NCBI GenBank assembly: GCA_019096065.1
Contig: JAGUCH010000002.1
Span: forward strand, 3,608,501 to 3,672,500
Direction of reading: 5' to 3'
From: Paracyclopina nana
Taxonomy: Eukaryota > Arthropoda > Copepoda > Cyclopoida > Cyclopettidae
Length of the DNA: 64,000 nt
Below are positions 3,608 to 55,816 of this stretch, in pieces; position 1 is the first letter of the stretch; every line of letters starts with the position of its first letter. The position numbers were made by a program, and so were the translations under genes. Under the pieces are notes generated by a model. The model worked only from the letters and a program-made list of their open reading frames with translations, was not told the DNA's origin and ran no database searches.

Positions 3608-4113
3608 CTCCTTTGTTATTACTGTTTGTTTTTTAAGAATCGCCTATTTCTCCTATTTTAAAGAAGCACATTGAAAGTATTATTGCCCACACATATCCTG
3701 AATGTATCATGCACAAACGATTTATGTTGGAATAAATGTGGTAATCTAAAACGTCGACGACATCTTATTTTTGGAGGCACTTCTTATGCTTGAAATGCTA
3801 TGTTAACGTATAGAACATTTTAGAGAAAATGGCCGGACCTTAAATAGAATCTCATAACACTGACAGTTAATTTTGGAGTGTTAAAAGCATTATCCATTAT
3901 TTCCTTTGGATGCTTCCAATATGGTACTATTTATGGCTTTCTCTCTTATGTTTTGTGCTACGTTCACGCGCTTCTTATAAAGCGCCGTTACTCCCGAAAA
4001 ACCTCAGTTGACGGACATCTTTATCACAAAGAAGAAGGTAAGCTCTGATTGCTAAAAGCAGAGTAGCATTAGCGCAATTTAACATTCCCTCCAATTTTTT
4101 TGTAGGAAAAGCA

Positions 4114-5636
4114 ATGCGGTATGAGCTGCTTGAAAACAAAGTGATCACTGTCACGTACATACTTTCGTATTTAGTCTTGTTCATTTGCTCCAAAATCAAC
4201 ATAAGCTACTTGAGGCACAAAAGTCCGGGAAAGCAGACAGTTTTGGACCTGATTCTCATCAAATTGTACCAGGCCATTTATGTGCCCTGGTTTTTTGGCT
4301 ACTCGCACTTTTTGGTCGGCTTCTGGTGCTCGCCCATTGATGACAAATACCTGCCAATCGCGGCCATGTCAAGCTTGATGCTCTCCACGCACAGTGGGGA
4401 CATCCCGTTGCAAAAAGTGGCGTTCGGAAATTTCGCGAAATGGCAGCATCGTTCAAACTCTCTCAAAACACGGCAGTTTAAAATGGGAAATTTCGAGGCC
4501 GAAAACAATTCAATCATGATTGTGGCATTAAAATTAATTGTTGGTTACATTACAAATTATGATAACTATTAACGGAAATTTGCGATTCGCTCAAATTTTC
4601 CGCGAAAAGGGGATCCTGAAGTTAAGCTATTTTTGATCATTTTCAAATATTAATTTGCTCGTTAGCCCTCAAAAGTTCTCAACAATTTTTGCATGAAACA
4701 ATCAGTTCATTACCTGAAATCATTATGACAAAGTTTTATTTGCGCATTTTGGCGCCATTTTGAGATATCACAGTTTTCACTGAGCCCATTTTGCCGACTT
4801 CAGCAGCCCTTTTTGAATTTTCAAAACAATAACAAACTCAGAAATAGCTGACAAAACCGTTTTCAATGCACTTTTCTATGAAAAATCATCAATTCATGCC
4901 AAAAAAATTGAAAACTAGGCCTTAAATCTATGTTTGAAAGGCCTACGGCATTAAGTACTAGAATATTTCACTTTGCCGCCAAACGCCACTTTTCGCATAG
5001 AGATGACCCCACTGTGCCACGTCGGTGTATTTAATGCTGTTCTGGCTGCTCACGTACTCAATCACAAAATACATGTTTGTCTACCAATCCATCCTGATTT
5101 ATGACTGCATTGAAGACGATGACAAGTTAGTAAGGAATTTAAGCGTCAGTTTGCCCATTGTCTCGGTATTGAGTTGCGCTTTCGATTACCTGCAAGGCAG
5201 CGGGATCAATGCAAATTACTTCTACTCAGTTTTCATTGAGCAAAGCCAAGTCAAGGCTGAACTTCCTCCACTTTTTCTCCTGCTCGTGGGATTTTATGCT
5301 TTGCTCCTGGTTTTCCTGCAGGTCCACTTGGAATACTCCAAATTCTCGTTCGAGCAGAAAAAGTCCTGCCTGAAGATGAAAACGAACCTACGGAAAACTA
5401 CCTACAGTCCCAAGATCATAAGACTGATGATTGGCCTAAGTTTCATTGCGTGCTCTGCCTACTTGCTGTTTTACCTCAATCGAGAGCATTTGTTGAACAT
5501 CCGAATGCTGCTGGTTGTCATGTTCAACACGACGCTCAACATTGTCATTCCTATTTTGCTCATTGTCAAAAATGCCAACATAAGAAATTTCGCCTTCAAG
5601 AGAAGCTATGACCTCAATGTCATCCTATTTTCATGA
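4114..5636 (+). pseudogene. Seven-transmembrane receptor-like gene interrupted by a transposon
   Basis: Two open stretches, 4114-4389 and 5022-5636, are in register once the element at 4390-5016 and one 5-bp target copy are ignored. Together they would give about 296 residues. The product is very hydrophobic, with seven likely membrane segments, and matches the intact 281-residue gene at 15620-16465 along its whole length; shared marks are the loop YLRxKSPGxQT, a YL(M/L)xxxLxT helix and a C-terminal VIPILLIVKNAN-like end. In the present sequence the first stretch runs into the element and stops at 4570-4572. An in-frame TGA at 5004-5006 prevents re-entry, and no AG lies between it and the resumed frame. 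The start is taken at ATG 4114; an open frame without ATG continues upstream through a possible intron (donor near 4035, acceptor near 4104), so a 5' exon is possible. I infer a recently broken gene or allele. The ligand is unknown. Confidence 0.75.
4390..5016. mobile_element. Non-autonomous TIR transposon, Transib-like, inserted in a coding exon
   Basis: The element is 627 bp. Both ends begin CACAGTGGGG, and the inverted repeat runs about 38 bp with a few mismatches: CACAGTGGGG, CATC, TGC, then AAAAGTGGCGT at matching offsets. Exact 5-bp direct repeats CCACG flank it at 4385-4389 and 5017-5021. A CACWRTG-type terminus with a GC-rich 5-bp target duplication is the known signature of Transib elements; hAT (8 bp), Tc1/mariner (TA) and piggyBac (TTAA) do not fit. 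There is no transposase-size reading frame inside, so it must rely on an enzyme supplied elsewhere. The superfamily is inferred from termini and target length only. Confidence 0.8.
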
Positions 5637-7389
5637 GAAATAAACTCTGCTGCTTTGTTCAGAATATAAATCTTTTCTTTAATTATGCCCAATCAAATCC
5701 TTTACTCGAAAGCAATTGTTGGACTAAATCTTTTGAAGGATAAGAAGGATCTTGCTAAATCCTCTGATTTACTTTGTTCAACTTTGCTCACAGCAATAAC
5801 AAATAAAATTCAAATGCATCTTGCAATCTTGGAGAGGTCATTGTGCTTTCCATCATATAGTTATTACACAGGTAAAAACGAAAACTAGACGGACGTGGCA
5901 ATATTTCATCACTTGAGTGATGGCAGAGGAGAGATGTAAGAGTAGCAAAATTGTATTTTTGTTTGCTCATTGAAGAAAGTGCTCAGCCAAGTGAAATTGA
6001 TGAAAAGTGCATCAACAGACCAATATATATTTCCTCTGAAAAAAACCCTGATTAGCTAATACACAATGATGTCAGTATCTGCGAGCCCCAGGAAGGCAAG
6101 CGAGTAAATGCCTTTCAACAAGGCTCTCCCTGTGACTTTCCAAAATAAAAAATTAAGTTGTCATTTGATATACTTTGTAAAGGATATAGACATTTTGAGT
6201 GGAGCAATATTTAAGTCCCTCAGACTCCCTTCAATAATTCTTCAATTAACAATGAGTTCGGTCATAATATGCATCAAAGTATTTAGTGGATCATCATTCA
6301 GCATATATGTCAATACAAAGAATGAATTTCCTAGATCATGCTCTTTCTGCTAGGTTTTCTTCCTTACAAGTACTTCAATAGAGAAGAAGCTGCTTAAAAT
6401 AATTATATTAGCAATTATATCTCACTTCAATGGCAATAATATGAAGAAATAAGGTGTAAATTCTCATTAATTCGAGGCTAGCAGATTGAGTTGAAGAAGG
6501 TCCTAACCCAAACTCTTAACAACACCCAAAAAATACATTTTCTTAAAGCTTGTTATGTTCTAAGGCTCATTTGGCAGTAATTTGAAAATCCTGGCGTATG
6601 GCTTCCCATAACATAAAATTTTCAAAAATGTCGAGCACCTACAGTCTATTACTTTCTGAGATTATCAATAGCAATGACCCCCTCTGAAAAAAGAAGACAA
6701 AAAGCTTTTTTACTTCATAAGTCAAGTTGGTAGTAATCAAATAGCATATAGCATACATATCCGTTTCTGCTGTTCATCCTATCGATTTTACTATGATGAA
6801 AATTAAGTTTTATTTTTGAATTTTAGTGGGGGGTTATTCAAGCTGACAATCCTCAAAAAATGAGCCGTTTTTGCGCATAACGCTTTTTAAATTTTTTTAT
6901 GTTATTGGAAGCGATAGGCCAAGATTTTTATTTTATCACCAAATGAACCCTTGGGACACATGCTTTCAGAAAATATATAATTCTTAGGTGTTGTAATAAG
7001 TTTGGGTTAGGTCCTTTGCCAAGTCAATGTGGGATGTTACTGTGAATGTGCCACTTATGACAATTCGAATGTTAAGGCCCAACAATTTTAAAATATCCTG
7101 GCTCATACAAAATGCCATTTCATAGGTCAACCCTAGTTAGCAAAAGAAAAACTTGCTCACCTTTTATGTAAACCGCATTACTTCATTTCAACCACCATTA
7201 CTTTGGAACGATGAAATCGATCCAACCCAAGATTTAGAATGATTTCCATTTTCTATCAAAAGTCTTTATTGTATTACTAGTTGGGTGGTGGTTTTTGCAC
7301 ATAATTATAGGAAACTTGAAAAAAGTTGTCAACTCAAAGGGGGGCAGGAGATAACATAAAAAGAGACTGAGCAACGTAAGAACTGAAGA
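5637..7389. other. Intergenic stretch
   Basis: Past the 7TM gene a possible AATAAA is visible just after the stop (near 5640). I see no reading frame with family resemblance or supported splice structure; the short open frames here are AT-rich and unconvincing. The middle holds the TIR element at 6497-7016. The right end runs into the 3' side of the DNAJB12/14-like gene, whose stop is at 7390-7392 on the minus strand. Confidence 0.5.
6497..7016. mobile_element. TIR element (MITE-like), about 520 bp
   Basis: Imperfect inverted repeats of about 45 bp bound this stretch. Left end: AAGGTCCTAACCCAAACT, then ACAACACC, then ATTTTCT. Right end, read inverted: AAAGGACCTAACCCAAACT, ACAACACC, ATTTTCT with the same order and spacing. 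No transposase frame is inside and no clear target duplication is visible, so it is either old or its borders are off by a few bases. The superfamily is not assigned. Confidence 0.6.
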
Positions 7390-21192: not shown

Positions 21193-23915
21193 ATGGTATT
21201 CTGCGAATCCGGACATGATTTGTGGCGAATTCGCACAGTGTTTCTGCGGATTTCAGCAGTCTGCTACGCCATGGCCTTTGCAAGTATTTACCCGCAAATA
21301 TCAGGCCTTTACGGCCACAACGGGCTGCTACCAATCCACGGCCTTCTGGATCCGGCTCCAGCATTGACGAAAAATGACATCTACGAGCCTGGCAAAATAT
21401 TGCAATTGTTCAAAAGCAGGCCAACTTTATTGTGGCTGCATGGCATGTTGGGACTGAGCCCGGATCTCATGATGGATGTCATTTCTCTGGCAGGAATGGC
21501 CTTGGCCTTGATGGCTGCAGTGTGGCCTAACATTGGCAATAAATTGGCCTTTATTGCTCTTTGGGTGTTCTATCAGTCCCTATACCAGGTATGAAAGCAA
21601 ACAGAGCTGGTTTTTTCTTTTGCTGCATTAAATTATTTAAGGTCGGCCAAACTTTTATGTGGTTCCAATGGGACATTTTGTTGTTGGAGGTTGGATTTTT
21701 GTGCATACTTGTGGCACCGTGGAGGGGAAGGCAGTATTTCATGGCAAGACCTTATGATCACATCAATCTCATGCTTGTCAGATGGCTCTTGTTCAGGATG
21801 ATGTTTGCATCCGGAGCAGTGAAATTGATCTCAAAGTGCCCCACGTGCACAGAAGGGTCACTCCTAACAAAAAAGTCGCATCGTTTTCACTGAAACTTAA
21901 GCGAAAAAGGCTATCACTAATTCGGCTCTAGATTGATGCTAACACTTCAAAATTGACTTCCATGATGTTTTTGGGCTACTAAAATGTTATCTTTGGAGAT
22001 TTTATTTTATCAAACTCAGATTTTGTCTATGAAAATCTGTCTCAAAAGGCTGCACGAAAATCAGAAAAAAATCATATGAGTCTAGATCCCTTGGACCTCA
22101 GCATTCCTCAAAGATGCTTTCCAAAAAACTTCAGTAGGACACCATGGAATAATTTTGTACCCATGTTGTGTTCATATATCCACATTCTTGTGAGATTCGA
22201 CAGGGTTTTTGCAAACCAAACTTGTGGCTATTTTTATTAAAATTGGTATGTTTTTGATCAATTTAGGCAATTGGCTGCCTAAAAACCTAATTAATTTACA
22301 TTTTTCTGGCTTTAGAATGACTTTCATATGATTTAGAAGGGGATTTATCAAGAAAATGCCAATTTTTGGCATTCTTAAAGTTATGGCGCATTTTCACGTA
22401 CTTTTCAATGATGCGACTTTTTTATTAGGAGTGACCCTACTGTGACGTGGTGGGGATTGACAGCCTTGCCAACGCACTATGAGTCCCAATGCTTGCCAAC
22501 GCCATTGGCATGGTATGCCTTTCAATTGCCAGACTTTGCCCAAAAGCTGAGTGTGGCCGGAACTTTTTTCATTGAAATCGGCCTCGTGTTTCTCTTCTTT
22601 GCGCCCTCGGCAGGCTTGCGAAAATTCACTGCCATTTTCCAAGTATTTCTCATGGTTTCAATCATGCTGACTGGAAACTACAACTTCTTCAATTTGCTCT
22701 ACATTGGTCTTTGCACAAGCCTTGCTGATGATTCGTGGATCAAGACAAAGTTCCATGCCATCTATGACTCTTCCAAGCTCGTGCTGAGGTAAAAGATTAG
22801 ATTGTGCCTTTTGTAAACTGTTTTATTTTCGTATTTGCTTCAGAGTTGCCAAATTGTTCAACGTTGTGGCTTACATTGGAATCGGCTACCTCAGCTACCG
22901 TTACTTGCTCCATGTAAGCTTGGATCCGTTTCGCATTGAACCTTTGGTGAAATTCAGCCAAGCTGAATTCGATGCTTTCCTAGAAGATGCCACCCTAATT
23001 GGCATAACTTTCGGTGGCCTAGCCTTGATGTTCTCTGGATTGATGGCCTTGTTCAAGTGTCTTCATCCCATGGACGAATTGTACCGTAGCCAAAGCTCCC
23101 TTCAGAAATGTGTGGCTTTCATCAATTGTGGACTATATGCTGTCATAGCTGGATCCATGTTTATCATGTCTATCCCTGTTTTTGCACAGGGATTGGGCCA
23201 AAAAGTGCCAGATCTTATGCCAACCCTGCCATTCAACCATGTCGTGTCCGATTACAACTTGATCAACTCTTATGGACTCTTTCGAAGAATGACCGGAGTT
23301 GGGGGAAGGCCAGAGATTGTGATTGAAGGGGCGGATCAATTAGCTGGGCCTTGGACTGAATACCATTTCATGTATAAGCCTGGAAATGTGAGTGAAGCTC
23401 CAAAGTTCCTTTTGCCCCATCAGCCAAGGTTGGATTGGCAAATGTGGTTTGCAGCTTTGGGGAAGTACCAGCAGAACCCTTGGTTTATTTCTTTACTCTA
23501 CAGGATCCTTGAAGGTATAATCTTACGATGTGATTTTAACTGTCGATTTAATTACCTTTTTTCAGGCAAGAAAGAGGCTATGGCCTTGCTCGACACAAAA
23601 GTCAATCCCAAAAAAGCACCCAAATTCATAAGGTCCAAATTGTACAAGTACCACTTTGCCAAGGACGGTAATAATTGGTGGACTCGGGAAGAAGCAAGAG
23701 AATACACTCCCGTGATGACTCTAGATGATCCTCCCCAATTCGCAGAATATTTAACCAAAATGGGCGTCTTGACTCCGCCCAAAAAAAGCCAAAAATCTAC
23801 CAACAGATGGCTTGCCAAATTTTTGCAATTCCTCAGATCTCAGGCGAGAAACATTCCGCACCACTACCTAGTTTGGAGCGTATCCTGGCCCATAATTCTA
23901 ATTTTTTTCATGTAA
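21193..23915 (+). CDS. Lipase maturation factor 2-like ER membrane protein, with a transposon-derived intron
   Basis: LMF proteins are polytopic ER membrane proteins; LMF1 is needed for folding of lipoprotein lipases, LMF2 is its less-studied paralogue. Exons: 21193-21588, 21642-21844, 22429-22788, 22844-23514, 23566-23915. Strong family matches are FASIYPQISGLYG, VGQTFMWFQWDILLLE, LVRWLLFRMMFASGAVKL, WWGLTALPTHYESQCLPTP, TGNYNFFNLL, NSYGLFRRMTGVGGRPE, EFHFMYKPGN-like text and PHQPRLDWQMWFAALG. Many hydrophobic helices are spread through the protein. The resemblance is closer to LMF2 than LMF1. The intron between exons 2 and 3 (21845-22428) lies almost entirely in the transposon at 21848-22444. 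Splicing with the donor in the target repeat and the acceptor in the right terminal repeat keeps the frame and adds six residues, SDPTVT, next to the conserved CPTWWGL site. Without splicing the gene would be truncated. AATAAA is at 24009-24014. Confidence 0.93.
21848..22444. mobile_element. Non-autonomous Transib-like TIR element inserted in LMF2, used as an intron
   Basis: The element is 597 bp. Left end CACAGAAGGGTCACTCCTAA, right end (inverted) CACAGTAGGGTCACTCCTAA; the repeat continues with AAAAAAGTCGCATC at both ends. Exact 5-bp direct repeats ACGTG flank it at 21843-21847 and 22445-22449. The ends have the same layout as the element at 4390-5016: CACAG start, GGG, TCA, then an A-rich block ending AAAAGT at the same offset. 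No transposase frame is inside. A GT from the left target repeat (21845-21846) and the TTTTTTATTAG at 22418-22428 form a usable intron; the acceptor is a tandem TAGGAG, and both choices stay in frame. Superfamily is inferred from termini and target length. Confidence 0.82.
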
Positions 23916-54430: not shown

Positions 54431-55816
54431 ATTGAACTGTTTGGAACATATAACTTATTATACATAGTTGATATGAAATATACATTACTAATCTGCTTCA
54501 ATCGTATTCAGCTCACTTCTTTTTAAAAAAGGGACCATATAAAATGCCTAAACTTGCTAATCTTAAAAAAATTCCATGAAGGAAGCTCAATTGGCATTAG
54601 AAGAGCAAAAGTATGTCATTTTTATTGTACAAATCCAATGGTAAGTACCTTAAAAAGTCATTTAAAGAATAAAATAATACTTTATAATAGTCTATTTGCC
54701 CAAACATTGAAATTGTTGCTAAAAAGAGAAGTTAGGGCACAAACTCGCCCAAACCTGCAAAAACCAGCCCAAATTTTCAAGAAAAGTATTTTTCAAGCTG
54801 CAGAACCTAACTACCGAGCATTTTGCAATTTTCCTTTCATGAAATCATGATTTTTAAATCAAAAACTTAAAAAACACAAACTCGCCCTAACCTTTAGATT
54901 TTGAAAGCAAATATTTTCAGAGCAAAATGCTCTGCAAGCAGGTTCTGCAGCTTGAAAAGCACTCTATAGGTTTGGGAGAGTTTGGGCAAGTTTGGGTGAG
55001 TTTGGGCGAGTTTGGGCATTTTATATGGTCCCTCTTTTAAAAGTTGTTTGAAACCACCCAGTCTGCAGCTAAGTATTCTTGGTACTATCAAAATTGTTAG
55101 ATAGTAGAGGAAATTGAGCAATAGGTTTCTGATGGGTAATAAGCATATTGATTATAGGGTGAATAATTATTTTTCTAAATGATTGATTGCTGCTTGAGTC
55201 TAAAAGTGAGAAGCTTTCATTGCTGAGCAACTATTGTTGAGAATGAACTGTAATTTAGCCCAAGCTTTCTTATCGCACTACAAGCTCTGGCATCAGGTCA
55301 AAAAGCAAAAAAGACAGCAGAGCAAGGTTACTCTAATGGCTTGCTCGCCTATGCCTAAGAATCTTTGAAGGACACAACACAAAACTATTTCTCAAAACTG
55401 CCCAAAGTTGTTTTTTCTGTTAAAAACTATGCTCCATATATTTTCTGAGCTTTCATGCAGATTCAAAATTAAAATTAGGTATGAATTAGGAAATGGTGTT
55501 TCTCCAAGTTATATCTGAAGCTGATCATTTTTCTCACTGAGCAAATGATAGTTCTTAAGTAATTGGAAGATTTTTTAATGCAAAAATGATCAGAGCAGCC
55601 TAACTTTGTTGAGTTTTACATTTCTTTAAGGGACCAAGCTATTTGTGTCTTTTCAGGCAATTTTGCTTTCTTTTTAGTTGACCCAGCAGCATCTATCTCA
55701 TGTGAAAGCTTGAAAAGTATCTTAGGCCAAAATACCTTGGCCTGCAAGCAAGCTTAGTTGGGCTTGAGCTGTGAGTTCCTTTTGAGGTCGAAAGTTTTCA
55801 TCTTAACTGCCTCACG
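54431..55816. other. Intergenic stretch between TRPA and paladin-like genes
   Basis: Apart from the TIR element at 54530-55033, I see no gene here. The right part (55040-55800) is AT-rich and contains no supported exon; it probably includes the promoter of the paladin-like gene. Confidence 0.4.
54530..55033. mobile_element. TIR element with subterminal TTTGGGC repeats (about 504 bp)
   Basis: The ends are AGGGACCATATAAAATGCC and its complement. Near the right end a GAGTTTGGGC-type heptad is repeated about five times in a row (54975-55017), and the left part has the same motif inverted (CTCGCCCAAAC near 54745). Inner inverted copies of AAGCTGCAGAACCT also occur (54797 and 54945). Flanks are T- and A-rich (TCTTTTTAAA left, TCTTTTAAA right), so the target duplication is not certain. 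No transposase frame. The superfamily is not assigned. Confidence 0.7.

Follow-up and report, generated by a model that had tools for sequence, protein, structure and literature searches.

A very recent exonic insertion of a Transib-like element in an LMF-family gene of Paracyclopina nana: probable gene interruption and a candidate weak intron

In a 64,000-nucleotide stretch of contig JAGUCH010000002.1 of Paracyclopina nana (hereafter the window), a 597-bp transposable element lies inside an exon of a gene of the lipase maturation factor (LMF) family, which raises the question of whether the element broke this gene or supplied it with a new intron. The gene model, predicted from open frames, is listed with the element in Table 1. 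The original prediction had the element splitting LMF2 at the conserved CPTWWGL site; the place is exact and lies within the Pfam domain PF06762 (lipase maturation factor; LMF1 family), which is interrupted between profile positions 62 and 63, whereas the gene name is less secure, since Pfam gives the LMF1 family only and we take the gene to be LMF2 rather than LMF1 from its similarity to vertebrate LMF2. When the flanks are fused with a single ACGTG (...KLISKCPTWWGLTALPTHY...), the frame is open through CPTWWGLTAL, and joining them to the three other exons gives an empty-site coding sequence of 1962 bases including the stop, corresponding to 653 residues. The three other introns of the gene measure 53, 55 and 51 bp. 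Querying the 91.95-Mb genome (10 contigs) with a 221-residue segment of exon 3 returned the LMF locus itself and a single relative, 43% identical, on C7, and a search of solved structures with the upstream 199 residues gave no match at E values up to 1.

Table 1. Positions in the window of the LMF-family gene, the inserted element and a second element used for comparison
Feature	Position	Strand	Remark
LMF-family gene, exon 1, ATG at 21193	21193..21588	+	open-frame gene model
LMF-family gene, exon 2, portion 5' of the insertion, PF06762 profile 1-62	21642..21847	+	
ACGTG target site duplication, left copy, containing the candidate GT donor 21845-21846	21843..21847	.	
Non-autonomous Transib-like element, MITE-like, 597 bp, without a long ORF	21848..22444	+	99% identical genomic copies
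Left terminal inverted repeat, starting CACAGAAGGGTCACTCC	21848..21885	+	
Right terminal inverted repeat, minus-strand start CACAGTAGGGTCACTCC	22407..22444	-	
Two candidate AG acceptors in the right terminal repeat, 22427-22428 and 22430-22431	22427..22431	+	scores 3.06, -2.33
ACGTG target site duplication, right copy	22445..22449	.	
LMF-family gene, exon 2, portion 3' of the insertion, PF06762 profile 63-162	22450..22788	+	
LMF-family gene, exon 3, start of LMF1_C (PF25179)	22844..23514	+	
LMF-family gene, exon 4 and stop	23566..23915	+	
Second Transib-like element, different family, 627 bp, ends CACAGTGGGG	4390..5016	+	comparison case
CCACG 5-bp duplication of the second element	4385-4389 and 5017-5021		

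The element is a genuine and recent insertion into an exon. The coordinates first proposed for the 597-bp element and its perfect ACGTG duplication match the DNA base for base, and the inverted repeats have arms of 38 nt that are 92% complementary. One genome search found at least 41 near-full matches with 89-100% identity, the LMF copy counted in, and a search for the end pattern with up to two mismatches gave 69 forward and 70 reverse matches (139 together, implying roughly 70 elements), whereas the reversed pattern, used as a control, gave 0 and 1. From 72 fetched loci, 45 elements were extracted; at one locus (L015), two adjacent copies have one flank in common, and each joined site includes the other copy. 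Since 42 of the 45 extracted copies carry perfect 5-bp duplications, the ACGTG duplication at the LMF site is no chance match. The consensus of these 42 duplications is CANTG (C in 29, A in 30, any base in the middle, T in 33 and G in 32), and GT occurs within 11 of them. Together with the element ends, the duplications point to cut-and-paste insertion with a 5-bp stagger. Divergence between the LMF copy and its nearest relatives is 0.7%; set against the majority of the five closest copies, the LMF copy has two differing positions, and several other family copies are mutually identical. Because its relatives are nearly identical, the LMF insertion must be very young, and the otherwise intact gene therefore says little about present function: its open remainder reflects the youth of the insertion and is no proof that the gene works.

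The family is short and non-coding, has inverted repeats and many near-identical copies, as a MITE does, and is young and non-autonomous. An autonomous partner was sought among the longer copies (L019, L051, L056, L066 and L071) and at a single-end site (L073), and these candidates were dropped: the longer copies contain no frame above 109 aa and no transposase-like frame, and the 4-kb stretch at L073 holds no transposase-like frame, only a truncated element copy. Beside this truncated copy, a 949-aa Thr/Ser-rich, mucin-like repeat frame built of units of about 546 bp occupies positions 1152-3999 of L073 on the minus strand. The ends of Transib elements resemble a CACAGTG-type heptamer, and those of the 597-bp family, CACAGTA and CACAGAA, agree with CACAGTG at six and five of seven positions. 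The description of the element as a Transib-like DNA transposon was borne out by these heptamer-like ends and the perfect duplications. A 5-bp duplication and ends starting with CACAG are common to this family and to Transib and Transib-derived MITEs, the former being also described for Hztransib in PMC1852546; the family differs from Transib in that no transposase was found in the longer copies examined. Membership in Transib would fit the duplication length and the ends.

The proposed intron would take its GT from the left duplication and its AG from the right terminal repeat. These signals are present as described: the donor can be paired with either of the two acceptors, the frame being kept without a stop and with the addition of six or five residues, respectively. 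The LMF site offers eight frame-keeping GT-AG pairs, of which the proposed pair is the best. Precise excision through the duplicated ACGTG on both sides was dropped because ACGTG holds no AG. Splice scores were obtained from matrices built on 22 short putative introns, of which 20 were selected by hand among 85 mechanically generated candidates and the remaining two were additional introns of the LMF gene. CAC/GTGCAC, the candidate donor, scores 3.47, which is lower than 18 of the 22 leave-one-out putative host donors and higher than 87% of all GT dinucleotides in the window; it has a G neither at -1 nor at +5, as is true of 2 of the 22 putative host donors, while the LMF gene's own donors read CAG/GTATGA, GAG/GTAAAA and AAG/GTATAA. 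The first acceptor, at 3.06, lies below 21 of the 22 putative host acceptors and above 86% of all AG dinucleotides in the window, and the second falls to -2.33. The splice signals of the candidate intron are thus weak, and its length of 584 bp compares with 51-73 bp for the putative host introns. Unspliced read-through would add 15 residues past CPT before a stop at 21891-21893, leaving a truncated protein of 215 residues.

The weight of frame-keeping was assessed by simulation, the element being placed into the LMF coding sequence at 3684 combinations of position and orientation. Frame-keeping, stop-free splice pairs near the element ends, found at the LMF site, also arose in 72.8% of these simulated insertions; the frame argument alone is therefore weak, and caution is called for, as such pairs are common and prove little. 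Where the duplication contained GT, a donor inside it worked in 32.5% of 640 simulated placements, and GT in the duplication combined with an in-frame TTAG acceptor accounted for 4.4% of weighted placements. Pairs that equal or exceed the strength of the proposed one (donor at least 3.4 and acceptor at least 3.0, cut-offs fixed post hoc at the observed values) occurred in only 44 of the 3684 insertions (1.2%), or 0.8% when weighted by target preference. This rarity is the best evidence for the introner idea and counts against simple interruption of the gene.

A new intron made by transposition, with GT from the duplication, TTAG from the right terminal repeat and six extra residues inside CPTWWGL, nevertheless appears rather unlikely: besides the weakness of both sites and the length unusual for this host, the added residues would enter a conserved domain. 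The splicing scheme itself is already described for introners elsewhere, in which, according to PMC9860276 (Gozashti et al. 2022), the 3' site comes from the element and the 5' site from the duplication, and added codons also occur. In that text, introners derived from DNA transposons resemble the LMF element in being non-autonomous and exonic with inverted repeats and a short duplication, and in that duplication and element may each contribute one splice site; the extra codons at LMF parallel a case in Aureococcus. The families treated there are groups of similar annotated introns, and the 597-bp family differs from them in its weak sites and in that its copies are not favoured in long open frames. 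Transposon insertion is also counted among the mechanisms of intron origin in PMC3443670. Our literature search found no paper joining introners with Transib, and a search on exon insertions that are spliced out likewise found no such paper. Exonic insertions of maize Ds were reportedly shown by Giroux and colleagues in 1994, with RNA evidence, to be spliced as introns from sites near the transposon ends; the likeness to LMF is an exonic transposon with splice sites near its ends, the LMF case being read from the DNA.

The behaviour of the other copies bears on the same question. The open frame spanning an insertion site has a median of 70 aa at the 45 sites, compared with 118 aa at 4000 random window positions (P = 9e-5) and 155 aa at 380 CANTG sites (P = 5e-8), and frames of at least 100 aa span 13 of the 45 sites as against 55% of the random positions and 252 of the 380 CANTG sites; these figures are indicative, as the control is a single 64-kb window, perhaps more gene-rich than the genome, and introns were not counted. 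Enrichment of family insertions in coding exons was accordingly not seen relative to this one window, the spanning frames being shorter than the controls. Among the 45 extracted copies, out of roughly 70 elements, two host-exon insertions were recognised from the length of the spanning frames, Pfam scans of selected cases and visual reading: that in LMF (L001) and one in a C2H2 zinc-finger gene (L037), which is split within a finger, as judged by eye, and can stay in frame only through a donor with a score of -1.79; this second exonic copy also speaks against the new intron. L066 and L007 are candidate host-exon insertions. A Pfam scan at E up to 0.1 of ten frames spanning the empty sites of other copies gave, below cut-off, ARM_TBCD, F-box-like and DDDD, as well as cytochrome b561 (7.5e-4) in the opposite-strand frame of L066. 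L066 itself, a 1045-bp relative, interrupts what may be a short coding frame containing an acidic stretch. At L005 (around 1501-2098), one member of the 597-bp family sits within an open frame resembling DNA polymerase B (PF03175), which belongs to a mobile or virus-like element.

Two further copies, L004 and L036, are intronic, about 20 bases past plausible donors as read by eye, and L036 comes after an fn3-like exon (fn3 2.4e-5, slightly under its cut-off). That copies do sit in introns would suit an ancient intron of the LMF gene that was later invaded and replaced by the element; this is very improbable, because the flanks meet exactly at the duplication, end and begin at profile positions 62 and 63 of the domain, and show no intron remnant when joined, and replacement was dropped on this last ground. 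The claim that the element is an introner held as far as an exonic DNA transposon with frame-keeping GT-AG pairs is concerned, and failed to carry further given the weak donor, the commonness of frame-keeping and the shorter frames around the copies. Going by the copies examined, the family bears little resemblance to introners.

The second Transib-like element of the window, also a MITE, offers a comparison. It begins exactly with CACAGTG, has 29 further genomic matches of at least 500 bp, and has a near-identical copy about 8 kb upstream (C2:3604879-3605510). The frame that it interrupts is open over 320 residues and was judged receptor-like by eye; the upstream part of this frame aligns up to the insertion point with a 64% identical relative on C8, whose frame of 334 aa is long enough to extend past it. 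No frame-keeping GT-AG pair was present near the ends of this element (donor from -12 to +70, acceptor from -60 to +12), and Transib-like elements here therefore split open frames without a frame-keeping exit. A gene with relatives may tolerate such an insertion.

For the LMF gene, the most likely outcome is simple disruption, perhaps in a polymorphic allele. It is probable that a very recent insertion in exon 2 mainly interrupts the gene and allows at best weak and imprecise splicing, with L037 and the second element supporting interruption as two other frame-splitting insertions without a good exit. A non-autonomous transposon with Transib-like ends would have entered exon 2 very recently at a CANTG-type 5-bp target; translation of read-through transcripts would then end at the stop described above and yield the truncated protein, and a portion of the transcripts may undergo imprecise splicing between 21845 and 22428 and gain six residues. 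Efficient splicing is unlikely because the donor is weak, and its chance may be put at about one in five. An exonic insertion that survived might nonetheless owe its retention to being spliceable, and for a conserved gene with one locus and a 43% identical relative to be broken, either its loss must be tolerated or the allele must be polymorphic. A polymorphic insertion, with the element in one allele, strain or assembly haplotype and a working gene without it, has a little less than an even chance; it would be compatible with interruption and with a new intron, and is favoured by the recency of the LMF copy, by the single locus with its one relative, and by the open remainder of the gene.

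At present, the locus stands mainly as a clear, very young exon insertion. A more general scheme, in which the middle base G of CANTG gives a Transib-like MITE its GT donor, both terminal repeats provide a T-tract and AG acceptor, and some of the exon insertions, whichever their orientation, are spliced out at the cost of a few extra residues, would make LMF the site of a just-born intron, and is decidedly unlikely. If it were true, the LMF copy would represent an introner derived from a RAG-related transposon and observed only shortly after it inserted. Splicing at LMF would make the element a rare animal intron near its birth, with an inferable empty site and a recently active source family, and would tie introners to the RAG-related transposon group.

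Two other parts of the window carry inverted repeats and may be further non-autonomous elements, one at 6482-7031 with 60-nt arms (77%) and the other at 54521-55042 with 37-nt arms (92%).
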